From contig JAHEMR010000004.1 in the NCBI GenBank assembly GCA_024643545.1, forward strand, positions 186,001 to 250,000: a stretch of DNA of 64,000 nt, read 5' to 3'. Of this stretch, positions 27,453 through 61,335 are shown in pieces. The notes beneath the pieces were generated by a model. That model saw only the letters and a program-made list of their open reading frames with translations, searched no databases and was not told the DNA's origin. This DNA comes from Crocinitomicaceae bacterium. GTDB lineage: Bacteria > Bacteroidota > Bacteroidia > Flavobacteriales_D > Crocinitomicaceae. The first letter of the stretch is position 1, and each line of letters opens with the position of its first letter. The position numbers and the translations under genes are program-made.

Positions 27453-27470
27453 TTTCTTGTGCTTATAAAT

Positions 27471-27534
27471 TAATGTGCTAATGTGCGAATTAACTAATGT
27501 GCTAATGTGCGAATTAACTAGTGTGCGAATTCGC
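27471..27534 (+). repeat. 8-bp-phased array (TAATGTGC family), 8 units
   Basis: Direct reading: TAATGTGC TAATGTGC GAATTAAC TAATGTGC TAATGTGC GAATTAAC TAGTGTGC GAATTCGC. Confidence 0.95.
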
Positions 27535-27628
27535 TTCCACCTCGGCGGAGAATTAAAGTGCTTTAGATCATCGTTCTTGTTTTCTTTCGCCGGAACGGAA
27601 AATTATTCATAGGCTAAAACAATATCAT

Positions 27629-27636
27629 TAACTTTG
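27629..27636 (+). promoter_or_regulatory. Putative -7 element (TAACTTTG)
   Basis: TAnnTTTG match 4 nt before GTG start at 27641. Confidence 0.4.
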
Positions 27637-27640
27637 TATT

Positions 27641-28054
27641 GTGAAAACACTGATTCTTATTTTTTTAAGTGCCCTATTGTTTTTAGGAAACGTTGGGGTT
27701 CCTGTTTTCACGCATGCCTGTGAGGAGGATGGTGTATTCACCTCTTTCTTTGTCAATCAACAAAATCATTGCCAAGAAAAAAAGTCTGACTTACCCCCTT
27801 GTTGCCAAAAAGAAAAAAAGAAGGATTGTTGTCACGATGAGAAAACCGTATTGCAATTAGACGAAAAATACGTGGTTACACATGGCTTATCCATTCCTTC
27901 ATTTCATATTCTTTACACAGAGAATCAACATTCCCCATGTTATAGCGTAATTCCTCATTCAGAAGTTGCATCTATTCAAACTTGGGACGATCCTCCACCT
28001 ATTCTGAAATACGGCAAGGAATTGCTGATTTATCATTGCACATTTCAGATTTAA
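27641..28054 (+). CDS. Small secreted Cys/His-rich protein of a TonB/HMA metal locus
   Basis: Signal peptide; CC and H motifs (PPCCQKEKKKDCCHDEK); upstream of TonB receptor and HMA protein; GTG start. Confidence 0.7.
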   Translation: MKTLILIFLSALLFLGNVGVPVFTHACEEDGVFTSFFVNQQNHCQEKKSDLPPCCQKEKKKDCCHDEKTVLQLDEKYVVTHGLSIPSFHILYTENQHSPCYSVIPHSEVASIQTWDDPPPILKYGKELLIYHCTFQI

Positions 28055-28127
28055 ATAATTAAACATTTATACAAGACTTCGCTTGAAAATTCAAGTGTTT
28101 ATTCAGTATTCATGATTTAATTTTCCT

Positions 28128-30323
28128 ATGAAATTTTACTTATTAATGATGATCCTTTTCGGGATTTCATCCATTTCAACAGCACAAATAAAGGGTGTTG
28201 TATTGCGGCAAGACTCTACAAAAAATACACCCATTGAAAATGCCAAAATTCGTCTTTCTCATTCGAATCAAGGGGTGTTTTCCAATAAGGAAGGTCAATT
28301 TGAAATCGTACTTCCTAAACAACTTCCAGATACGCTCATCATTAGTGCGATGGGCTACCTGTCGGACTCAATAATCGTGACAAAAAATGATCGCTTCATA
28401 GCCCTTACCATCTTATTGTTTCCTATTTCAACTAAAACAGAGATTGTATATCAAATGAGGAAAAATTCCCATCAAATATCCAAAATGAAAACACTCCACG
28501 TGGAAGAAATTGGTTCAGGTGAATTAAGGAAAGCTGCTTGTTGCAACTTATCAGAGTCTTTTGAAACGAATGCATCTGTAGATGTGAATATTACGGATGC
28601 CGTTTCTGGTGCGAAGAAAATACAAATGATGGGACTTGATGGTGTGTATACGCAAATCCAGATGGAAAATATTCCTTATTTGCGAGGACTCGAAAGCTCC
28701 TTTGGGCTTCAATCCATACCGGGAACGTGGATTGAATCCATTCAAATCACTAAAGGCACGGGAAACGTGGTGAATGGATACGAATCCATGGCAGGATTGG
28801 TGAATTTAGAAATAAAGAAACCGAATGAGATGGAGAAATTCTACTTCAATGCTTACCAAAATCGTTTTGGTCGATCTGAAATCAATGTCAATGGTGGTAG
28901 AAAAATCAATCAAAAATGGAGTACAGGAATTTTAGGACATGCTTCCTCTATGTTTGGAAACATCGATCACAATATGGATGGATTCCGTGATATTCCAATG
29001 GGAGATAATCTCGCTATCATGAATCGCTGGGCTTTTCAAGGAAAGAAAATGGAAGCACAATTTGGTGTGAATGCTTATCAAGACAGAAAATTAGGTGGGC
29101 AAAACACGTATTTCCGAGATAGTCCAGTTGGATATGGTGTGAGTATGAACGCGCGTCACGTAGACCTATACGCAAAAACAGGATTCTTCAGCAAAAAGCC
29201 ACTTAGGTCCTTCGGTGTTGTGTACAACCTAAAATTCCAAGAAATGAGCGGTATATTCGGAAATCGTGCATTCGAAGGAAAAGAAAAACGAGCCTATGTG
29301 AATGCGATTTACGATGACATTCTTGGAACAAGCGACCATAAGATCAAGTTGGGGGCAAGTTTTGTCGGATTGATGATTGAACAAAAAGCCGATCAACTAC
29401 AACAGGTTCGAACGGAAATAGTTCCTGGGATTTTTGGGGAATATAGTTACACGGGCTCTCGTTTAAGCGCAGTTTTGGGAGCGCGCTATGACCAACACCT
29501 CACTTATGGCGGGCAATTCTCGCCAAGGATTCATGCGAAATATGCACTTACACAACGAACTGATTTACGCGTAACAGCCGGAAAAGGATGGCGCGTTCCG
29601 AATTTCATGATCGATAATGTTTCCTTGTTAGCAAATTCGAAAACTTGGATGTCACCAACTGAAATCAAACCGGAAATTTCATGGAATGCAGGCGCATCCT
29701 TGGTGAAAGATTTTACACTTTTCGAAAAAACTGGAAACCTAAGCCTAGACTTCTATCATACTCTTTTCCAAAATCAATTGATTGTCGACCGAGATGCCGC
29801 ATTGGATGCAATTGTCTTTCAAAACCTAACAAACTCATCCTACTCTAATAGTTTTCAAGTGGAATGGTCTTATGCACCAATGAAGAATTTCGACCTTCGT
29901 TTAGCTTACAAACATTTAGATGTGAAGGCATTATATGATGGCGTGATGCGTCAACAAGTCATGATTCCAAAGAACAGAGGATTCATTAATGTAGCTTACC
30001 GAACGCGAAATAAACGCTGGGAATTTGATGCTACTTGTACGGTTTACGGATCATCGCGTCTACCTGTTATTCTTCAATCGTCGGGTATTGTACAGCATGA
30101 TGAGCAAAGTCCAATTTATCCGATGGTGAACGCACAAATCACACATGTTTACAAAAAATGGAATTTTTACGTTGGTGGTGAAAATTTAGCGAACTTTAAA
30201 CAAGCGAATCCGATTATTGATGCGCTGAATCCTTTTGGTTCTCAATTCGATGCAAACCGAGTTTGGGGTCCGATTATGGGATGGAATGTGTATGCGGGTG
30301 TTCGTTATGCGATTAAGGGGTAA
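28128..30323 (+). CDS. TonB-dependent receptor with carboxypeptidase-like regulatory domain
   Basis: IKGVVLRQDSTKNTPIENAKIRLSHSNQGVFSNKEGQFEI; plug KAACCNLSESFETNASVDVNITDAVSGAKKIQMMGLDGVYTQI; barrel. Confidence 0.93.
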   Translation: MKFYLLMMILFGISSISTAQIKGVVLRQDSTKNTPIENAKIRLSHSNQGVFSNKEGQFEIVLPKQLPDTLIISAMGYLSDSIIVTKNDRFIALTILLFPISTKTEIVYQMRKNSHQISKMKTLHVEEIGSGELRKAACCNLSESFETNASVDVNITDAVSGAKKIQMMGLDGVYTQIQMENIPYLRGLESSFGLQSIPGTWIESIQITKGTGNVVNGYESMAGLVNLEIKKPNEMEKFYFNAYQNRFGRSEINVNGGRKINQKWSTGILGHASSMFGNIDHNMDGFRDIPMGDNLAIMNRWAFQGKKMEAQFGVNAYQDRKLGGQNTYFRDSPVGYGVSMNARHVDLYAKTGFFSKKPLRSFGVVYNLKFQEMSGIFGNRAFEGKEKRAYVNAIYDDILGTSDHKIKLGASFVGLMIEQKADQLQQVRTEIVPGIFGEYSYTGSRLSAVLGARYDQHLTYGGQFSPRIHAKYALTQRTDLRVTAGKGWRVPNFMIDNVSLLANSKTWMSPTEIKPEISWNAGASLVKDFTLFEKTGNLSLDFYHTLFQNQLIVDRDAALDAIVFQNLTNSSYSNSFQVEWSYAPMKNFDLRLAYKHLDVKALYDGVMRQQVMIPKNRGFINVAYRTRNKRWEFDATCTVYGSSRLPVILQSSGIVQHDEQSPIYPMVNAQITHVYKKWNFYVGGENLANFKQANPIIDALNPFGSQFDANRVWGPIMGWNVYAGVRYAIKG

Positions 30324-30376
30324 TGTGCTAGTGTACTAGTTTGTTAATGGATCAATATGCAAATGTGCTAGTCTAA
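30321..30376 (+). repeat. 8-bp-phased array, degenerate, about 7 units
   Basis: TAATGTGC TAGTGTAC TAGTTTGT TAATGGAT CAATATGC AAATGTGC TAGTCTAA; first TAA is the stop codon of the TonB receptor. Confidence 0.85.
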
Positions 30377-30402
30377 ATGAATATTTTTTAAATTTATGTA
30401 TT

Positions 30403-30732
30403 ATGAAAACAATAACCTTAAGTCTATTTTTCGTGCTTATGAGCACCGTGAGTTTTGGACAAAAAACGATAACAAGTCAAATTCAAACAAGTGCACAATG
30501 TGGCGATTGTAAGGAGCGTATTGAAGGGAAGTTGAATTATACGAAAGGAATAAAATTCGCAGAACTCGATGACCAAACGAAAATTGTGAGCGTAAAATTT
30601 GACCCGAAAAAAATCGATCTATTTACAATTAAACAAACCATCGCGAAAATTGGGTATGATGCAGATGAAGTGAAAGCAGCGAAAGAAGACGTGGAGAAAT
30701 TACCGAAGTGTTGCCAGCCGAATGGACATTGA
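30403..30732 (+). CDS. Secreted heavy-metal-associated (HMA/MerP-like) domain protein
   Basis: Signal peptide; QTSAQCGDCKERIEGKLNYTKGI CxxC motif; C-terminal PKCCQPNGH. Confidence 0.88.
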   Translation: MKTITLSLFFVLMSTVSFGQKTITSQIQTSAQCGDCKERIEGKLNYTKGIKFAELDDQTKIVSVKFDPKKIDLFTIKQTIAKIGYDADEVKAAKEDVEKLPKCCQPNGH

Positions 30733-30764
30733 TAATGTGCTAATGATTTAGTAAACTAATTGTA
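30733..30764 (+). repeat. 8-bp-phased array, forward polarity, about 4 units
   Basis: TAATGTGC TAATGATT TAGTAAAC TAATTGTA directly after the TGA stop of the HMA gene. Confidence 0.8.
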
Positions 30765-30849
30765 CAACGTGTTCATGTTCATGTTCATGTTTTTTCAATA
30801 TTCCAATTTCTTTTCTCTATTGAAATCACTTTGACCTTAACGTGCACTA

Positions 30850-30905
30850 CAACATTGGCAAATTAGCACTTTAGGTGATTGGTACATGAGCACATTACTA
30901 CATTA
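30850..30905 (-). repeat. 8-bp-phased array, reverse polarity, 7 units, upstream of purF
   Basis: CAACATTG GCAAATTA GCACTTTA GGTGATTG GTACATGA GCACATTA CTACATTA. Confidence 0.85.
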
Positions 30906-30937
30906 TACCTATCTTTGTGGCAAATATCTAAAAGACC

Positions 30938-32839
30938 ATGAGTGATCCGATAAAACATGAGTGTGGAATAGCTCTTTTAAGGCTGAAAAAACCTTTGGAA
31001 TATTACCTAGAAAAGTACGGTACAGCACTGTATGGCATCAACAAGATGCACCTCCTCATGGAAAAACAACATAATCGTGGTCAAGATGGAGCTGGAATTG
31101 CGAACATTAAATTCGATATGGAACCAGGGAATCGTTATATATCGAGAACGCGTTCCATCAAAAAGAATCCAACCCAAGATATTTTTGATCAAATAAATGC
31201 GAAGTTTCAACAAATTCAACAAGAGAATCCTGCCAATTTAAAAGATGTAGATTACTTGAAGAAAAACGTTGGATTTACGGGTGAATTGTTCCTTGGTCAC
31301 TTGAGATATGGAACTTTCGGAAGAAATTCAATTGAAAGTTGTCATCCATTTTTGCGTCAAAATAACTGGATTACACGAAACCTCGTAGTCGCTGGAAACT
31401 TTAATTTGACCAACGTCGATGAGTTGTTTCAAACACTGATTAATCTTGGACAACATCCAAAAGAAAAAAGTGATACGGTAACAGTTCTAGAGAAAATTGG
31501 TCATTTCCTTGATGTAGAAAATGATGACTTATATGCTCATTATAAATCACTTGGCTATTCTAAAGATCAAATTTACGCGCGTATTGCCAAAGAGGTGAAT
31601 TTGGTTAAAATCTTAAAAAAAGCATCTGAAGTTTGGGATGGCGGATATGCTATGGCAGGCTTACTAGGACATGGTGATGCTTTTGTATTAAGAGATCCAA
31701 ACGGAATTCGTCCAGCATTTTGGTACGAGGATGATGAAATTTGTGTTGTTGCTTCGGAACGACCTGTAATTCAAACAGCCTTCAACTTAACCAGTGATCA
31801 AATTCATGAACTTCAACCCGGTCATGCACTGATTGTGCGTAAAAGCGGAGAAGTGAAAGAAGAGATGATTAATGCACCACGTGAAATTAAAAAATGCTCG
31901 TTTGAACGCATTTATTTCTCTCGCGGATCCGATACCGATATCTACAAAGAACGCAAGGCATTAGGACGATTAATCGTTGATCAAGTGCTAAAAACTGTCG
32001 ATTACGATTTTGATAATAGTGTGTTTTCTTTTATTCCTAATACCGCAGAAGTTTCCTTTTATGGATTGATCAAAGGATTGGAAGAAAATTTGAATCAACA
32101 AAAAATTCAGCAAATACAAGCGCTTGACTCTACAGCTGATTCTGAAAAAATAGAAGAGATTATCAATAGAAGAGCGCGTATTGAAAAAATCGCCATTAAA
32201 GATGCCAAGTTACGTACTTTCATCACTCAAGATGACTCACGAGACGATCTTGTTGCGCATGTATATGACATCACATACGGCAGTGTACGTCCAGGAACGG
32301 ATAACCTCATCGTAATTGACGATAGCATCGTACGTGGGACAACCTTAAAGCAAAGTATTTTACGCATTTTAGATCGTTTATCTCCGAAAAAAATCGTTGT
32401 TGTATCTTCTGCACCTCAAATCCGATACCCAGATTGTTATGGAATTGATATGGCGAAAATGGGCGATTTTATTGCGTTCGAAGCAGCCATTCAATTATTG
32501 CGTGACCGCAAAATGGACCGTGTGATCAAAGAAGTATACGAAAAATGCCTTGAGCAAGTAAACCTTCCGAAAGAACAAGTTCGAAATTTCGTAAAAGAAA
32601 TCTATGCACCTTTTAGCAACGAAGAGATTTCTGCAAAAATTGCTGAATTGTTGACACCTCCTACGATTCAGGCAAAAGTGGAAATCGTTTTTCAAACCGT
32701 AGAAAACCTTCACATTGCTTGTCCAGATCACCTTGGAGATTGGTACTTCACTGGAGATTATCCAACACCTGGCGGAAATAAAGTGGTAAACAAAGCTTTC
32801 ATCAATTGGATGGAAAAGAGGAATGAGCGAGCTTATTAG
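30938..32839 (+). CDS. purF: Amidophosphoribosyltransferase-like, class II glutamine amidotransferase (long Bacteroidota type)
   Basis: HECGIALLRLKKP, KQHNRGQDGAGIANI, LGHLRYGTFGRNSIESCHPFL, PRTase motif LIVIDDSIVRGTTLKQSI. Confidence 0.88.
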   Translation: MSDPIKHECGIALLRLKKPLEYYLEKYGTALYGINKMHLLMEKQHNRGQDGAGIANIKFDMEPGNRYISRTRSIKKNPTQDIFDQINAKFQQIQQENPANLKDVDYLKKNVGFTGELFLGHLRYGTFGRNSIESCHPFLRQNNWITRNLVVAGNFNLTNVDELFQTLINLGQHPKEKSDTVTVLEKIGHFLDVENDDLYAHYKSLGYSKDQIYARIAKEVNLVKILKKASEVWDGGYAMAGLLGHGDAFVLRDPNGIRPAFWYEDDEICVVASERPVIQTAFNLTSDQIHELQPGHALIVRKSGEVKEEMINAPREIKKCSFERIYFSRGSDTDIYKERKALGRLIVDQVLKTVDYDFDNSVFSFIPNTAEVSFYGLIKGLEENLNQQKIQQIQALDSTADSEKIEEIINRRARIEKIAIKDAKLRTFITQDDSRDDLVAHVYDITYGSVRPGTDNLIVIDDSIVRGTTLKQSILRILDRLSPKKIVVVSSAPQIRYPDCYGIDMAKMGDFIAFEAAIQLLRDRKMDRVIKEVYEKCLEQVNLPKEQVRNFVKEIYAPFSNEEISAKIAELLTPPTIQAKVEIVFQTVENLHIACPDHLGDWYFTGDYPTPGGNKVVNKAFINWMEKRNERAY

Positions 32840-33028
32840 TTTGCTAATGTGCTAGTTATCTATTGTGCTAATGTGCTAGTTATCTAATGTGCTAATGTGC
32901 TAGTTATCTAATGTGCTAGTTTGCTAATGTTCTAATGTGCTAGTGTGCTAGTTATCTAATCGGCTAGTTTGCTAGTTATCTAATGTGCTAGTTTGCTAAT
33001 GTGCTAATGTGCTAGTTTGCTAATGGTT
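32837..33028 (+). repeat. 8-bp-phased array, forward polarity, 24 consecutive units
   Basis: TAGTTTGC TAATGTGC TAGTTATC TATTGTGC TAATGTGC TAGTTATC TAATGTGC TAATGTGC TAGTTATC TAATGTGC TAGTTTGC TAATGTTC TAATGTGC TAGTGTGC TAGTTATC TAATCGGC TAGTTTGC TAGTTATC TAATGTGC TAGTTTGC TAATGTGC TAATGTGC TAGTTTGC TAATGGTT; first TAG is the purF stop codon. Confidence 0.97.
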
Positions 33029-33113
33029 CAATGATCTTTTGCGCCAAGGTGGGGATTTTAATGTTTCTTTGACGCGAGCAGAATAAATTTCAACTTCTTG
33101 CGTTCATTGTTTC

Positions 33114-33468
33114 ATGACTGATTCCAAGAACCCATTATTAAACAAATCATTTGACTTTGCGCTGTTAATTGTGTCGTTTTGTCAAGAGTTACAATCCCAA
33201 AGGAGTTTCAATTGCACATCAACTGTTAAAATCCGGAACGTCCGTTGGTGCAAATATTCGTGAAGCTCAGCACGCAGAATCTAGAGCGGATTTCATTCAT
33301 AAACTGAAAATTGCCTCCAAAGAATGCGAAGAAACGACCTATTGGCTTGAAATCTGTCAAGCAAGTTATTCCATGAATTGTGATGTACTCATTAACGAAT
33401 CGCAACAAATCGGCAAACTACTCAGTCGCATCATCTCAACAGCCAAACGGAATAAATCCCTAAACTAA
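33114..33468 (+). pseudogene. Frameshifted four-helix-bundle protein (S23/23S rRNA intervening-sequence-protein family)
   Basis: Frame from 33114 reads MTDSKNPLLNKSFDFALLIVSFCQELQSQ; another frame continues SIAHQLLKSGTSVGANIREAQHAESRADFIHKLKIASKECEETTYWLEIC. The family core is split across frames near 33198-33212. Confidence 0.85.
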
Positions 33469-33482
33469 CCAGACTCCAACTA

Positions 33483-33581
33483 GACCATTAGCAAATTAGC
33501 ACTCCGGCACGGCGGAAAGTCATTAGCACATTACACCATTAGCAAATTGGACGATTTGCACATTAGGTCATTAATACATTA
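33483..33581 (-). repeat. 8-bp-phased array, reverse polarity, two blocks, upstream of kdtA
   Basis: GACCATTA GCAAATTA GCAC then (phase break) AGTCATTA GCACATTA CACCATTA GCAAATTG GACGATTT GCACATTA GGTCATTA ATACATTA. Confidence 0.9.
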
Positions 33582-33607
33582 TCCCTATTTTTACAAAAAA
33601 AATAAAT

Positions 33608-34807
33608 TTGTCACTGATCTACTCCTTTTTTATTCAATGCTATGGCGTTTTGATTCATGTAGTTTCATGGTTCAATCCAAAGGCGAAGTCTTGGGTGGTG
33701 GGACGACAACAATGGGATGAAAAATTACGGACACAAATCCCGAAGAATCGAAAGGTGATATGGTTTCATTGTGCGTCGCTTGGGGAGTTCGACCAAGGAT
33801 TGCCATTGATGAAGTCCCTGAAGGAAGTGGATCCAAATTTATTTTTATTGGTGAGTTTCTTCTCTCCTTCTGGAATGGAACATTACCAAAAACGCGAGGC
33901 GATCGTTGATGCAGCTTGCTACCTCCCTTTGGATACACTTCAAAACGCTCGAACTTTTGTCCAAATCGTACAACCCGAAAAAGCCATATTTGTAAAGTAT
34001 GAATTCTGGCCGAATTTCCTACGAGCTTTAGATGAAATGACTATTGAAACGGTTGCTGTATCAGCTATTTTTCGTCCGACACAACTTTATTTTCGTTGGT
34101 ACGGTGCCTTTTTTAGAAGAGCATTGAAACGGATCCATCATTTTGATGTGCAAAACGAAGAAAGTGCTGAACTTTTGAAATCTATTGGCATTCAACAAAG
34201 CACTGTTTCCGGTGACATGCGTTACAAGCGAGTGGTTCAAGCAAAGGAAATGGCCATGGAGCATTCGAATGAACTTTTGGCGACCTTTACTACTGGAACG
34301 ACTACACTCATCATTGGAAGTTCATGGCAAAAAGAAGAAGGTATTGTTCGTGAGGCTCTCTCGGAGCTTGGAGCAACTAAACTGATCATAGCGCCACACG
34401 ATGTAAGTGAGCAACATATTTCATCCATTCAGACACAATTCCCAAATGCTTTGCGCTACACCCAGTTAACTTTTCCAAATGACGAAAGGAAACTATTCGA
34501 TTCACAAATTCTCATCATCGATTGCATTGGTCAATTAAGTTTGGCTTACCGCTACGCAACAATTGCTTTCATTGGTGGTGGCTTTACGGGAAATCTTCAT
34601 AATATTCTTGAACCTGCCGTTTACGGACTTCCGCTCCTGTTTGGTCCGAAACATCGAAAATTCCCAGAAGCAAAATTATTTCTTCAAAAAGGCTTTGCCT
34701 TAGAAGTAACAAATCCAAAAGATTTCTCTCAAGCCTTTAATGCATTACTTTCGAAGGTTACATCGCTTCGTCCGGAAATGGAAAAGTTTGTGCAAGCACA
34801 AGCGTGA
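33608..34807 (+). CDS. kdtA: 3-deoxy-D-manno-octulosonic acid (Kdo) transferase
   Basis: IWFHCASLGEFDQGLPLMKSL; FVKYEFWPNFL; GDMRYKRV; FIGGGFTGNLHNILEPAVYGLPLLFGPKH; TTG start. Confidence 0.94.
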   Translation: MSLIYSFFIQCYGVLIHVVSWFNPKAKSWVVGRQQWDEKLRTQIPKNRKVIWFHCASLGEFDQGLPLMKSLKEVDPNLFLLVSFFSPSGMEHYQKREAIVDAACYLPLDTLQNARTFVQIVQPEKAIFVKYEFWPNFLRALDEMTIETVAVSAIFRPTQLYFRWYGAFFRRALKRIHHFDVQNEESAELLKSIGIQQSTVSGDMRYKRVVQAKEMAMEHSNELLATFTTGTTTLIIGSSWQKEEGIVREALSELGATKLIIAPHDVSEQHISSIQTQFPNALRYTQLTFPNDERKLFDSQILIIDCIGQLSLAYRYATIAFIGGGFTGNLHNILEPAVYGLPLLFGPKHRKFPEAKLFLQKGFALEVTNPKDFSQAFNALLSKVTSLRPEMEKFVQAQA

Positions 34808-34815
34808 TTGGTTAC

Positions 34816-34863
34816 TAAAGTGCTAATGGACTAATGTGCTAATGTGCTCGTTTTCTCGTTTAC
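34816..34863 (+). repeat. 8-bp-phased array, forward polarity, about 6 units, after kdtA
   Basis: TAAAGTGC TAATGGAC TAATGTGC TAATGTGC TCGTTTTC TCGTTTAC. Confidence 0.85.
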
Positions 34864-34887
34864 AAGTTATTATATCCTTTGACGAAA

Positions 34888-34927
34888 GGTCAATAGCAAA
34901 CTTGCACATTGATTAATGAGCAAGTTA
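34888..34927 (-). repeat. 8-bp-phased array, minus-strand sense, about 5 units, starting at the stop codon of the minus-strand gene
   Basis: Reverse complement reads TAACTTGC TCATTAAT CAATGTGC AAGTTTGC TATTGACC; first TAA is the stop codon at 34927-34925. Confidence 0.7.
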
Positions 34928-35692: not shown

Positions 35693-38185
35693 TTATTTCT
35701 TTTTCAGAAAAATGCGCAAAAAGGGAAAATATCGCTCGATGCGATTTCTCCATTTACGCTTATTTTTAGATGGTTTATCAAAATACTCATTTCCGCTAGA
35801 TCCATAACCGTAGCCATAGCCATATCCGTAGCCGTAACCATATCCGTAGCCATAGCCAGCTCCATAACCATAGCCATAACCATAACCTTTCCCAGTAAGA
35901 TCTGTAGCGTTCACTAAAACGGCCATGTTAGGCATTTTCTTTTCGTGATAAAGACTTGCTGGTATACTTAACATTCTACGGTCTAAGTGTTCAGCTCTTG
36001 CAACATAAACGACAATATCTGAATATTTATGAACATGTAAAGAATCTGCAACCAAAGCTACCGGGGCAGTGTCTAGGATAACATAATCATACTGAGATTT
36101 TGCAATTTCAATTAACTCTGCCAAACGTGGTCTTAGTAATAATTCAGATGGATTCGGAGGGATATCACCGGAAATAATGTAATCTAAATTCTGATTTCCT
36201 TGATCATGAATGACGATATCATCAAACGTTAAATCTTCTTTTACGATATAATTTGTTACCCCGACAGTTTTAACAACATCCACATATCGCGCAATTTTCG
36301 GAGCACGCAAATCCAAGCCTATCACAACAACTTTCTTATCACTATGCGAAAGCGTATGCCCAATATTGATGGAAATAAATGTCTTACCCTCACCTGCAAT
36401 AGAAGAGGTTACCATAATAACTTTCGAGCCCTTTTTATCATTATCTAATAAAAAAGTTAAGTTTGTTCGAATCATTCGGAATGCTTCAGCAATATGTGTT
36501 CGCGCATTTTTTGTAGCCACAATCGTTCGTCCACTTTCATCCCCTTTAGGAACCTCTCCAATTGCTGGGATTTTAAATTTGATTAAATCGTGAAGGCCAT
36601 GAACTTTACTGTCCAATAAATATTTTAGGTAAATGATACCAAATGGCACTAAAAGTCCAATTACAACTGCAAAAATGTAGTATTTCTTACGGTTTGGCTC
36701 TGTAGGTAAACCATTGCTACTTGCCTCATAGATGATTTTTGTATTTCCAATAGAGGAAGCTGTCTTTATTTCATTTTCCTCACGTTTTTGCAACAAGAAA
36801 ATATACAATGTTTCTTTGATTTCTTGTTGTCGTTCTATATTCCTAAACTCACGTTCGTAACCAGGAACTGAAGCAATTTTATCTTTATAACGGTTATCGA
36901 CTACATTTAATGAATTCAAGGTAATTTTCAAACGAGATTTATTCGATTTCAACCCTTCATCAATGGAATGGCGTAAACCAATTAGTTGATCATCAATTTT
37001 TTGAACGGTTGGATTTTTAATACTAGAATTCTTCATTAAGCGTTGACGATCCAACAAGAGTTTATTGTACTGAGTAGTCATCGCCACGATAGAACCGTCT
37101 TCAAAGCCGAGATTCGATGGCAATAATTCCGTATAATCTTGGTGCTTCTGAAGGTATTCTTGCAGGTAATCATTCAAACTTAATTGTACAGAAGTCTGAA
37201 TAATACTCTCCTCTGTGGCACTTTGTTTGGCAACAAATTCCCCACCTTGAGTTGCTACATCAACAATATTGTGTTTTGTTTTAAATGCTTCTACGTCCTT
37301 TTCTACAGCTGATAATTCTTCAGTAATGTAGGCCATTCTGTCATTTATAAAAGCACTTGTATTTCGGGCGATTTCATTTTTATCATAAATGCTTTGAGCT
37401 TCATGCTCTGTAATGAGGGCAGAGATAATGTCATTATTTTTCTCAATTACCGGCCCGTCGTATGAAATAGAAATTAAATCTGAAAACTTATCAACGCGTT
37501 CTAAGATAATATCAGCACCCAATTTTGATGTGGCATCTTTGATTGGCTCTAGATAGACGATGTATTCATTTCCTATTGTTGATGCATTAAAATTGGTGTT
37601 TTTGACAAATGATATTAGTCCAATTTTAGTCGCTATCGGAGTGTTAAATGTATGTGAACCTAAATATGTGCTTTCATCAATGTGAAGTTCAAATCGCATT
37701 GACGAAATTACTTTTAATTGAAAACTAGCACTTTTGTCAAAAAGTAAGCTGTCATTTCTAACAGACTCTAATGTGAAAGGTGTGTTTTTGTATAACTCTG
37801 ATTTTTTAATGCCAGCATTTTGTCCAACCAATAAATACCTGCGATTTAAATTAAGTTTTCTAACAACACTATTCAGAATTGCCGGTGTTTTAAATAATGC
37901 GATTTCATTCTCTAATTTCGTGCTTTTTTCAGTTAATCCAAGGTCTTGAAATGCTGAAAGTCCTTTTAATACATCGTCTTCTTGATTCTGTATTAAAATG
38001 GTTGCTGTTGATTTATAAATTGGTGTAGAATACCTCAATAAAGTGTAGGCAACAAAAACAGAAATGAATACTCCCACAACGAACCACAACCAATAATGTA
38101 GGTAACGATCTATAAGTTCCCGTACATTTATCTTTGGCTCAGGAGCGTCTTGTTGATCCTGCTTTTGGTTATAATCCTCTTGCAT
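35693..38185 (-). CDS. wzc: Polysaccharide biosynthesis tyrosine autokinase (Wzc-like)
   Basis: Wzz domain plus BY-kinase motifs VIMVTSSIAGEGKTFISINIG, VVVIGLDLRAP, YDYVILDTAPV; Tyr-rich C-terminus. Confidence 0.93.
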   Translation of the reverse strand: MQEDYNQKQDQQDAPEPKINVRELIDRYLHYWLWFVVGVFISVFVAYTLLRYSTPIYKSTATILIQNQEDDVLKGLSAFQDLGLTEKSTKLENEIALFKTPAILNSVVRKLNLNRRYLLVGQNAGIKKSELYKNTPFTLESVRNDSLLFDKSASFQLKVISSMRFELHIDESTYLGSHTFNTPIATKIGLISFVKNTNFNASTIGNEYIVYLEPIKDATSKLGADIILERVDKFSDLISISYDGPVIEKNNDIISALITEHEAQSIYDKNEIARNTSAFINDRMAYITEELSAVEKDVEAFKTKHNIVDVATQGGEFVAKQSATEESIIQTSVQLSLNDYLQEYLQKHQDYTELLPSNLGFEDGSIVAMTTQYNKLLLDRQRLMKNSSIKNPTVQKIDDQLIGLRHSIDEGLKSNKSRLKITLNSLNVVDNRYKDKIASVPGYEREFRNIERQQEIKETLYIFLLQKREENEIKTASSIGNTKIIYEASSNGLPTEPNRKKYYIFAVVIGLLVPFGIIYLKYLLDSKVHGLHDLIKFKIPAIGEVPKGDESGRTIVATKNARTHIAEAFRMIRTNLTFLLDNDKKGSKVIMVTSSIAGEGKTFISINIGHTLSHSDKKVVVIGLDLRAPKIARYVDVVKTVGVTNYIVKEDLTFDDIVIHDQGNQNLDYIISGDIPPNPSELLLRPRLAELIEIAKSQYDYVILDTAPVALVADSLHVHKYSDIVVYVARAEHLDRRMLSIPASLYHEKKMPNMAVLVNATDLTGKGYGYGYGYGAGYGYGYGYGYGYGYGYGYGSSGNEYFDKPSKNKRKWRNRIERYFPFLRIFLKKK
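35801..35886 (-). repeat. In-frame Gly-Tyr-coding tandem repeat within wzc
   Basis: Encodes GYGYGYGYGAGYGYGYGYGYGYGYGYGYG; DNA is repeated GGNTAY hexamers with synonymous variation. Confidence 0.9.
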
Positions 38186-44210: not shown

Positions 44211-45982
44211 TCTTGTATTTCCGTATTAACTTGAGATTTATTTGTTAAATCCCTGGATTCTACAACGATGTTCTCCATCACTAACATGTCCATATTGGTC
44301 CGAAGAAAACAATTTATGGCTTCAATTGGTGCATTTACAATTGGTTCATTTTCATTGAATGATGTGTTCAATAGAATCGGAACACCGGTTTCCTTGAAAA
44401 AGACACTAATTAGTTCATGATAACGTTTGGAATTTGCTTTATCCACGGTTTGCAATCTTCCTGATCCATCGGCGTGGGTGACGGCTGGAATTTCGGCTTG
44501 TTTTTCCTTTCGAATGGGGAGAACTTTTTCCATAAACGGAACAGGTTCATCCAATTCAAACCAATTTTTAACCTCTTCTTTGAGAATACTTGGTGCAAAT
44601 GGACGAAAACTTTCCCTGCGTTTGATTTTTAAATTTAATATTTCTTTGGCATCCTCACGTCTCGGATCAGCGATAATTGAACGTCCACCAAGGGCTCTTG
44701 GTCCAAACTCTGCTCGACCATTGAACCAACCAACTACTCCCCCATTTGTTAAGCATTTTACAATTTCTGGATAAAGCTCGGCGTCTTCCATTTCACGATA
44801 AGATAAATTCAAACGATCGCATTCCGACTTTATGAATTCATTGCTGAATTTACTTCCGGTATTTGCGTTGAAAACCGGTTCGCACCTTGTCTGATTTGCA
44901 AGCATGTGCTCAACCCAATAAGCACTTCCCATGGAAATTCCAGCGTCATGTCCTGCGCTCGGTATATACACTTCTTTAAATGGCGTGTTTCTTGTTATTT
45001 TTCCATTAGCCACACTATTTTGAGCAACTCCACCGGCAATACACACTTTGGTTAATCCTGTTATTTTGTGCAAATACGTTAAAACATGGAAAATAATTTC
45101 TTCCGTATACCTTTGCACGGATGCCGCTAAATCTTTGTGATACCGTGTTAATTCTTCATCTTTAACACGAACCTTTCCAAATCTAGCTTCCATTTTTTCA
45201 TTGAATAGCGAATGAACCAACGGCATGAAATCCTCCGAATAATATACATATCCTTTATGCGGTGATTGAAAATAAGACAAATTCAAACGAAACAACCCGT
45301 CTGGAATAAGTTGAACTACATCGCGAAGTAAATCCACATATTTTGGTTCACCGTATGGAGCAAGGCCCATCACCTTGTATTCATCACCGTAATATGGGAA
45401 ACCTAACAATTGGGTCATTGCCGTGTAAAAAACGCCAACGGAATGAGGGAAGTCAATGTCTTCCAAGACCTCAATATTCGTTCCTTTTCCGCGTGCCAAC
45501 ATCGTCGTCGTAAAATCTCCTGCTCCGTCGATGGATAAAATCGCAGCTTCTTCAAAGGGTGATGGATAAAACGCCGATGCCAAGTGACTTCGGTGGTGCT
45601 CCACGTTTTTAATTTTAGCTTCTAGATCTGTTAAGGATAATGTAGCGTCTACTTTTTGCAATTCGGCCGCAATGCTCCCTATTTTTTTTGCGTTAGACAA
45701 GCGATTCACGGCGTATTTTAAAACGTGGATCGGTGACTGCATGATAAATGCAAGTTTCTTTTTGAACTTCGCCTTCGGGTCGCGTCCAATGCAGATGTAA
45801 TTGACATCTTTCAGTGATACACCGGCTTCCTTTAAGCAAAACTCAATCGCTTGAACAGGAAAACCTGCCCAGTGTTTTGTGCGTGTAAATCGTTCTTCCT
45901 CTGTCGCGGCAATTAATTTACCGTTGACTAAAATGGCTGCTGAGGCATCAGCGTGGTAGGCGTTTATTCCCAGTATGATCAT
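44207..45982 (-). CDS. Carbamoyltransferase (NodU/CmcH family)
   Basis: ILGINAYHADASAAILVNGKLIAATEEERFTRTKH; GRAEFGPRALGGRSIIADPR; RESFRPFAPSIL; LLNTSFNENEPIV. Confidence 0.95.
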   Translation of the reverse strand: MIILGINAYHADASAAILVNGKLIAATEEERFTRTKHWAGFPVQAIEFCLKEAGVSLKDVNYICIGRDPKAKFKKKLAFIMQSPIHVLKYAVNRLSNAKKIGSIAAELQKVDATLSLTDLEAKIKNVEHHRSHLASAFYPSPFEEAAILSIDGAGDFTTTMLARGKGTNIEVLEDIDFPHSVGVFYTAMTQLLGFPYYGDEYKVMGLAPYGEPKYVDLLRDVVQLIPDGLFRLNLSYFQSPHKGYVYYSEDFMPLVHSLFNEKMEARFGKVRVKDEELTRYHKDLAASVQRYTEEIIFHVLTYLHKITGLTKVCIAGGVAQNSVANGKITRNTPFKEVYIPSAGHDAGISMGSAYWVEHMLANQTRCEPVFNANTGSKFSNEFIKSECDRLNLSYREMEDAELYPEIVKCLTNGGVVGWFNGRAEFGPRALGGRSIIADPRREDAKEILNLKIKRRESFRPFAPSILKEEVKNWFELDEPVPFMEKVLPIRKEKQAEIPAVTHADGSGRLQTVDKANSKRYHELISVFFKETGVPILLNTSFNENEPIVNAPIEAINCFLRTNMDMLVMENIVVESRDLTNKSQVNTEIQE

Positions 45983-45984
45983 GT

Positions 45985-46064
45985 TAATGTGCTAATTATT
46001 CAATGTGCTAATTATTCAATGTGCTAATGTGCTAATGATTCAATGTGCTAATGTGCTAATGGTT
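45985..46064 (+). repeat. 8-bp-phased array, 10 units, 2 nt before carbamoyltransferase start codon
   Basis: TAATGTGC TAATTATT CAATGTGC TAATTATT CAATGTGC TAATGTGC TAATGATT CAATGTGC TAATGTGC TAATGGTT (plus strand; gene is on minus). Confidence 0.95.
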
Positions 46065-60002: not shown

Positions 60003-61283
60003 TTACTTCCATTTTACCTTATCGAAAATTAGGTGTCCGTTTGGACGATCATTCCAATTAGTACTAGTCACTATACTTGTAATTTCAAATAATGGGACAT
60101 CCATTAAAAAATCATATGATAAGGATACACTATCTTGGGTAATGGCAATTTGACCGAAATAATTTCCGGAACTCAAATTATTATTTTCAATTGTGAATTG
60201 AATGTTGTTATTGCCGGGAAAAATCGGCTTCTGGAAATTTTGATCATTACTATTTAAAGTAGAAATTATTTCACCGTTAGAATTAAAAATAATTATCAGA
60301 ACCTCAATACTTGATCTCGAAATTTTAGAAAATAGATCTAATCCAATAGTCACATCCTCACCACTTTTCAATTTAATAATATCAGAGGAATTTCCGTTTA
60401 TCGATAATTTTCTGATTTCAATATTAAAATCCACATTTTTTCTTCGATAATATTTTAATTCATCCCTTTTTCGATCGAGTCTAATTGCGTTTAATTGATA
60501 TTGTTTAACAGCATCAATCGTAGATATTAAATTTTGATGATTTCTTCCTGATTCTAGAATCAATGATTTATTCGTTAATTGAAGAATACTACCCATATTA
60601 TGACTCACAAACAACACAGTTCTTCCCTCACCTTTGCTAACCTCACCCATCTTGCCTAAACACTTCTTCTGAAATTCGGCGTCTCCAACAGCCAAGACTT
60701 CATCCACAATGAGTATTTCACTTTCCAGGTGAGCAGCTACTGCAAAAGCCAACCGCACATACATGCCTGATGAATAGCGCTTTACTGGCGTGTCAATGTA
60801 GCGTTCCACGCCAGAAAAGTCAATGATTTCATCTAGCTTGCGGTCAATTTCTCGTTTTCGCATGCCCAAAATGGCTCCATTTAAGTAGATGTTTTCACGG
60901 CCTGTAAGTTCAGGATGAAAACCAGTACCTACCTCTAATAAGCTGGCTACGCGACCTTTGATGTTTATTCTACCTGTTGTTGGCGTAGTAACTCTCGATA
61001 AAATTTTTAGTAAGGTACTTTTTCCTGCACCATTTCGTCCAATGATTCCAACGGCATCACCTTGATTTATTTCGAAGTTGATATCACGTAAACTATAGAC
61101 AATATCGCTTTCTCCACGGTTCGCACGATCATTCGTTTCACCAATTTTAAGGAATGGATCTTCTTGTTTTAATATCTTAGTCTTGAACCAACGTTCCATA
61201 TCACGGGACATAGTTCCTGTGCCAATCTCTCCGAGACGGTAGATTTTGGAGAGGTTTTCGACTTTGATGGCTGTGTTGCTCAT
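60003..61283 (-). CDS. wzt: Polysaccharide ABC transporter ATP-binding protein with C-terminal Wzt-like domain
   Basis: GIIGRNGAGKSTLLKILSRVTTPTTG; YSSGMYVRLAFAVAAHLESEILIVDEVLAVGD; extra ~170-aa beta-rich C-terminus. Confidence 0.92.
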   Translation of the reverse strand: MSNTAIKVENLSKIYRLGEIGTGTMSRDMERWFKTKILKQEDPFLKIGETNDRANRGESDIVYSLRDINFEINQGDAVGIIGRNGAGKSTLLKILSRVTTPTTGRINIKGRVASLLEVGTGFHPELTGRENIYLNGAILGMRKREIDRKLDEIIDFSGVERYIDTPVKRYSSGMYVRLAFAVAAHLESEILIVDEVLAVGDAEFQKKCLGKMGEVSKGEGRTVLFVSHNMGSILQLTNKSLILESGRNHQNLISTIDAVKQYQLNAIRLDRKRDELKYYRRKNVDFNIEIRKLSINGNSSDIIKLKSGEDVTIGLDLFSKISRSSIEVLIIIFNSNGEIISTLNSNDQNFQKPIFPGNNNIQFTIENNNLSSGNYFGQIAITQDSVSLSYDFLMDVPLFEITSIVTSTNWNDRPNGHLIFDKVKWK

Positions 61284-61323
61284 TTGTTTGTTTGCTAATG
61301 ACCCAATTTGCTAATTGGGGCAA
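61284..61323 (+). repeat. Short 8-bp-phased array directly before wzt start codon
   Basis: Plus strand TTGTTTGT TTGCTAAT GACCCAAT TTGCTAAT TGGGGCAA; sense (minus) ATTAGCAA ATTGGGTC ATTAGCAA ACAAACAA-ATG. Confidence 0.6.
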
Positions 61324-61335
61324 GTTCTCGAAATA

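Follow-up and report, generated by a model that had tools for sequence, protein, structure and literature searches.

Results

Octamer arrays in the window

The window analysed here is a stretch of 64,000 nucleotides (C14:186001-250000, on a 361-kb contig of a 2.75-Mb assembly in 38 contigs), and the spacers between its genes carry tandem arrays of an 8-bp unit with consensus TAATGTGC. The first array, at 27458..27535 on the + strand, lies 3' of a PIG-L family gene (stop 27452) and shows a 24-bp higher-order pattern of TAATGTGC and GAATTAAC. A second + strand array (30307..30374) follows the gene for a TonB-dependent receptor, its first unit being the stop codon TAA (30321), and a reverse-facing one (30845..30905, - strand) is found directly 5' of a promoter-like TATCTTTG and purF. 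Beyond purF lies the largest array (32822..33051, +), the left arm of a composite structure, in which the first-unit TAG is the purF stop codon and for which TRF agrees with the 24 units at 32837-33028 given by the initial annotation. It is followed by a frameshifted pseudogene of the PF05635 family (23S rRNA IVP, or S23, four-helix bundle; 33114..33468, +, from Pfam and translation) and by a reverse-facing right arm, with an inner block at 33479..33510 (-) from the profile scan and an outer block at 33521..33585 (-) that adjoins the kdtA upstream region. Further arrays lie 3' of kdtA (stop 34807; array 34815..34856, +) and between two - strand genes (45982..46061, +), these two and the outer block being found by both TRF and the profile scan, and a weak degenerate array (61270..61328, +) scored 27.8 against 22.9 for the best control.

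The profile scan, run on the whole contig at period 8, detected 14 arrays with scores of at least 24, nine of them inside the window (27458-61328), and all 14 scored above the reversed-sequence controls (top score 22.9), which bears out the count of at least nine arrays in 34 kb in the initial annotation. TRF called arrays of period 8, 16 or 24 at 27458-27530, 32837-33025, 33521-33565, 34814-34848 and 45985-46061; at 32837-33025 it also called higher-order repeats of 24 and 72 bp, so the secondary 24-bp order noticed earlier is real and multi-unit duplication is evident. Autocorrelation over the contig gave 7 matches at lag 8 versus 0-1 at lags 4-7 and 9-15, with lags 16 and 24 as echoes of lag 8, and the genome-wide frequency check proposed at the outset returned 38 matches in the source genome to a pattern of two adjacent units (at most 2 mismatches) versus 1 to the reversed pattern. 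As a lone 8-mer TAATGTGC occurs 74 times versus 59.7+-7.6 expected, barely above chance, so that the non-random part is the tandem phase. The strict 8-bp phase claimed at first holds within blocks, with certain units strongly diverged (GAATTAAC, TAGTTATC), while the orientation had to be corrected, since arrays occur in both orientations and three of the nine in the window are on the - strand.

Other repeats accompany the octamers. GC-rich, species-specific palindromes punctuate the arrays, TTCCGCCGCGGCGGAG in G016 (L190-L192) and TCCCGAnCCTTCGGGA in G002 (L193-L194), and attach at the C end of the octamer unit; G002 has a regular composite repeat of ~52 bp, and window positions 27535-27550 are a degenerate palindrome copy. 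A period-6/18 repeat, CCATATCCGTAGCCATAG, at 35802-35884 has a period that is a multiple of three and lies within a - strand ORF, and a spacer with GGGCATGCCC palindromes in the window's genome (G000, C14:257815-257985), with its G016 counterpart, is of another repeat type, octamers being absent.

An IVP gene between facing arms

The purF-kdtA spacer holds the PF05635 match (E=1.1e-17, Pfam, on ORF 33169-33468). The frame break is visible in the translation, and this IVP remnant is enclosed by the two largest facing arms, 32822-33051 (+) and 33479-33585 (-). Five other loci have an IVP gene exactly between facing TAATGTGC arms, and there the copies are intact: G016 and the related contig L144, and the unrelated Bacteroidota L138, L147 and L120. 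In G002 the corresponding gene is elsewhere (C7:15.6 kb) and the purF-kdtA spacer lacks an IVP, so the IVP site differs between G000 and G002. A PDB search, the only use made of a stitched read-through of the broken gene, gave as best match 2rld, an entry with five chains; an IVP protein is described as a four-helix-bundle homopentamer forming a toroid in what PMC4990558 relays from Lin 2006. The initial annotation missed three features, the polarity, the inverted pairing of arrays and the gene for a four-helix bundle that the arms enclose, and its overall reading is only partly supported.

Of 150 Bacteroidota genomes sampled, 118 have IVP genes (maximum 16 per genome), as do 38 of the 40 reached via array loci, the Pantoea genome among the latter having none. 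We rejected the idea that an IVP is the constant partner of each array: well-assembled members of the clade have just 2-4 IVPs per genome, and most arrays of a genome have no adjacent IVP gene. Unit purity, as mean match, was 7.02 in G002 and 6.48 in G016, where the IVP is intact, versus 6.05 in the window's genome with its pseudogene, a trend across three genomes only that is consistent with maintenance of the arrays by IVP.

In G002 and the outgroups the kdtA gene (33608-34807 in the window) is convergent with purF, whereas G000, G016 and L144 have it inverted; the inverted gene has arrays of opposite orientation on either side, which suggests recombination between arms.

Periodic flanks at IVP loci

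We measured flank autocorrelation at 150 Bacteroidota IVP loci, drawn mostly from top-scoring matches. Lags 7 and 8 alone showed a raised mean, and the rise was confined to about 150 bp on each side of the IVP gene; the best lag was 7 or 8, at a value of at least 0.55, in 221 of 300 near intervals versus 9 of 287 farther ones, and purF flanks of array-less congeners, used as a control, gave a best lag of 7 or 8 in 5 of 49. Left and right periods agreed as (7,7) in 60 and (8,8) in 45 of 136 loci, with 7 and 8 mixed in 5. Median arm similarity was.58 inverted,.41 direct and.42 against another locus's partner, and inverted similarity exceeded direct in 106 of 120 loci. Units vary widely between loci (GTTGAAG, ACTGGGGG, GTTTCTA, TGTTTAGT, TAATGTGC), and nearly all TAATGTGC-type IVP loci have a common polarity.

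Array period is inherited along the IVP protein lineage, upholding the earlier view that more than recent slippage is involved: on the IVP protein tree it changes 9 times versus 36.8 with shuffled labels, or 8 versus 16.1 in a set made non-redundant at 60% (0 of 500 shuffles as low), and 55 of 56 close IVP pairs share a period. The TAATGTGC-type IVPs are spread over more than one clade of the tree (7 changes). A few loci have direct instead of inverted arms (L256, L284, L301, L320, L321, L360), and others have an IVP without flanking arrays (L261, L262, L279, L380, L383); the latter belong to one subtype in several related genomes, possibly a domesticated form. In G002 and G033 a second family, the heptamer CACTRRG, shares genomes with the octamers and flanks IVP genes of its own (L255, L256).

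Mirrored unit order between the arms was seen at p<=0.05 in 4 of 82 loci and is not supported. Arms that share the unit but not its order neither support nor require a simple stem or copying by fold-back. Single arrays, in turn, fold as RNA no better than shuffles (z-scores -1.5 to +1.6), and the selection on self-contained nucleic-acid structure that the initial annotation had proposed is supported on neither count.

Patchy distribution and dispersal of cognate units

Among 36 other genomes of the genus, those of the first relatives search, only G002 (150 matches), G016 (118) and G033 (33) are rich in TAATGTGC-type arrays, the rest having 0-4; these three and the window's genome form one PurF clade at 95-96% identity, with the next relative at 85%. 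Outside the genus the exact four-unit pattern matched more than 120 contig stretches, in array-bearing genomes thus selected by pattern, and 79 of the 80 listed have Bacteroidota titles (Kapabacterium and Ignavibacteria included). The exception, Pantoea, has a different unit, chiefly TGATTTAC/TAATTTAC. In an even sample of the phylum three exact units were found in 1 of 399 genomes, so the arrays occur in sporadic bursts. Most of the Bacteroidota sequences are MAGs, in which assembly could shorten or merge arrays; independent assemblies and complete plasmids agree. Viral spread was considered and rejected, the triple unit being present on just 3 viral contigs. The Pantoea agglomerans stretch (L098) is a 79-unit octamer array in a genome without a PF05635 match, so period-8 arrays are possible in the absence of IVP.

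Three foreign units were checked for dispersal. Arrays of ACTRGGRG gave 698 and 59 matches in the two genomes with an IVP of that unit and 0 in 14 others, and GTTTCTR arrays gave 705 in the cognate genome versus 0-2 in 15 others. For ACAARTG arrays the cognate genome had 514 matches, two further genomes had 45-54 and the other 13 had 0-4; one of the two, G469, carries an IVP (L324) with a GTGACA/ACGCGTG-like unit. These counts indicate that a genome carries scattered arrays of its own IVP's unit.

Polarity and placement at gene boundaries

The arrays are an intergenic family, as first described, with 5 of 226 genic. The nearer gene boundary is at the TAAT end in 75 versus 18 arrays of the window's genus and clade and in 139 versus 29 across the phylum, and the median distance to the boundary, with simple ORFs as gene calls, is 4 nt from the TAAT end versus 122 nt from the other. 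Paired arrays face inward (gene]TAATGTGC... ...GCACATTA[gene). At 3' ends the TAA or TAG of the first unit is the stop codon itself in 28 of 83 phylum and 10 of 38 clade arrays lying 3' of a stop, and at 5' ends arrays end just short of a promoter-like TAnnTTTG. Comparison of orthologous spacers, suggested by the initial annotation, revealed that in four species the array after purF, a gene with a conserved C-terminus, begins precisely at the position of the conserved stop, and that array-less relatives have unrelated sequence there. Spacer interiors of sister species are near-completely different, their genes being 78-85% identical. Two sequence-level accounts of the unit were tried and rejected: promoter mimicry, TAnnTTTG fitting TAATTTGC inexactly, and a chain of mini-ORFs (ATG TGC TAA, with a 1-nt overlap giving 8), in which the ATG varies between units.

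Such exact positioning at stop codons and beside promoter cores, the presence of stop codons in all frames and the conservation of orthologous array positions in sister species are what would be expected if the arrays were host regulatory or insulator sites at gene boundaries (terminators, translational-control or nucleoid-protein sites) and the IVP an incidental neighbour, an idea near the model proposed for TAACTGA repeats. We nevertheless regard this as improbable, since the arrays are patchy, with many matches in 4 sister species and 0-4 in other congeners, and occur at every gene-pair type, divergent pairs included; their RNA fold is not unusual, and the unit-specific arms around IVP genes and the cognate dispersal would be left unexplained.

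Occupied and empty sites

All 12 plasmid IVP genes checked, ten cyanobacterial, one from Bernardetia and one from Treponema, are flanked by period-7 arrays on one side or both, and in most of them the two sides form inverted arms (AATTCAA...TTGAATT, AGTCGGA...TCCGACT). Their sites include the junction between cas2 and cas1 (two species), that between pglX and drmD, and a position before xisH/xisI. At the occupied cas1-cas2 sites a few nt separate the array edge from the start codon of cas2, and at the xisH site it is equally flush. This placement in tight gene junctions explains the flush ends seen in Bacteroidota. In two relatives cas1 and cas2 abut, with neither IVP nor array. No target-site duplication was seen by eye at the compared cas1-cas2 and xisH sites, and copies on Nostoc flagelliforme plasmids were unusable for boundary mapping, as they lie within larger duplications.

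The empty sites bear on the possibility that IVP genes insert preferentially into pre-existing arrays, which would then be targets and not parts of an element. Many arrays do lack an IVP gene, and the few IVP loci with same-direction arrays on both sides would fit; yet insertion within one array should leave direct flanks, when most loci have inverted ones, the unit differs per IVP with the period tracking the protein, and the empty cas1-cas2 sites hold no array at all, so that we judge this explanation highly improbable. Neutral microsatellites, arising in AT-rich spacers through slippage and multi-unit duplication and needing no dedicated protein, would account for the 16/24/72-bp repeats, the restriction to non-coding DNA and the drift of units, but are strongly disfavoured because an identical octamer with identical polarity recurs in unrelated Bacteroidota, only lags 7 and 8 are raised, around one gene family, and the arms are inverted with a common unit and a period inherited with the IVP protein.

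Discussion

A proposed extragenic element with tandem arrays as arms

We consider it probable that the arrays are the arms, and ORF-less copies of the arms, of an extragenic, apparently mobile element whose sole gene is IVP (S23, PF05635). Its layout would be [unit]n - IVP gene - [reverse-complement unit]n, each IVP lineage having its own 7- or 8-bp unit, which in the window's clade is TAATGTGC. The element would lie in spacers, its outer TAAT ends directly at stop codons or promoters, a placement from which solo arms and empty pairs would be expected to point inward from gene boundaries. We hypothesise that the IVP protein, as a toroidal homopentamer, contacts one repeat unit with each subunit when it binds its cognate array; period and polarity would thereby be held constant, with the units free to drift. 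Spread may be by copying into gene junctions via host enzymes, both for the element and for its derivatives without the ORF, and where the IVP gene has been lost, the window being one case, the arrays would decay. We infer both the recognition of arrays by the protein and the transposition chemistry, and to our knowledge IVP has no catalytic domain, which counts against a mobile element, as does the fact that no transposase was found.

Less firmly, but on balance, we lean towards a wider view, in which IVP/S23 genes are widespread minimal selfish elements, at least in Bacteroidota, Cyanobacteria and Spirochaetota, whose toroidal pentamers act in trans, recognising 7/8-bp arrays specific to their lineage and spreading these to gene junctions, with TAATGTGC, TAACTGA and the cyanobacterial STRR as footprints. 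IVP/S23 proteins have been known for decades without an assigned function, and STRR and TAACTGA repeats have had neither gene nor mechanism. As a rule IVP genes have 7- or 8-bp arrays of their own around them, which would account for several scattered short-repeat families in bacterial spacers and offers a concrete agent for spacer evolution. Tying such repeats to the IVP gene yields a testable hypothesis for both, in which a protein family that is already known, and whose ring structure has been solved, determines the period and the unit. There is a resemblance between PF05635 and Avd, a protein of diversity-generating retroelements (PMC10053308), and PF05635 genes have been reported in the vicinity of CRISPR-cas systems and retroelements (PMC3936711, PMC10053308), where they could alternatively be viewed as inserted passengers and not as system components.

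Comparison with known systems

In the open PMC literature we found no published account of the TAATGTGC repeat or of IVP together with tandem repeats. The class proposed here consists of an IVP gene within inverted period-7/8 arms of one unit, an arrangement that the window locus has around its IVP remnant. Like MITEs and REP/BIME sequences, the arrays are short, non-coding, inverted, intergenic and multi-copy, but their arms are arrays of variable length, the fixed terminal inverted repeat is absent and there is no known transposase.

Cyanobacterial STRR (short tandemly repeated repetitive) sequences are 7-bp tandem arrays dispersed in spacers. The arms AATTCAA, GTAATTC and AGTCGGA around cyanobacterial IVP genes look STRR-class, whereas the window's arrays, octamers in a Bacteroidota genome, fall outside STRR with its period of 7; no earlier tie between STRR and a gene was found in the open literature.

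TAACTGA heptamers are intergenic tandem repeats of exact period with a patchy presence in Beggiatoaceae, cyanobacteria and Bacteroidetes, for which horizontal spread is suspected (MacGregor 2015, PMC4679880). They have period 7 where the window's TAATGTGC has 8, and their sets lie mostly 5' of start codons in one direction, with no IVP link made (PMC4679880), whereas window-type arrays are found at both gene ends and in inward-facing pairs. One IVP, at L276 (G035), has TAACTGA-like arms, which ties MacGregor's repeats to the class of IVP genes with arrays. TAACTGA-type heptamers also occur in a spacer of G002 (C7:69200-69251).

The intervening sequences (IVS) of 23S rRNA with an S23/IVP ORF, as in Leptospira and Coxiella, are considered selfish and possibly mobile (PMC4990558). 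The ORF (PF05635) is present at the window locus, frameshifted there and intact in relatives. Elements of the rRNA type have complementary ends able to pair as a stem and are cut out of the transcript by RNase III. In place of a 23S rRNA helix, the window element lies between purF and kdtA, and the flanking genes at sampled annotated IVP loci are protein genes. The arms here are 7/8-bp tandem arrays and not a perfect stem, inverted with a common unit without mirrored order, and ORF-less arrays are scattered genome-wide. Common to both is the same gene family between inverted ends, and the best reading of the structure described here is an extragenic relative of the rRNA IVS elements, apparently mobile, with tandem arrays as arms.
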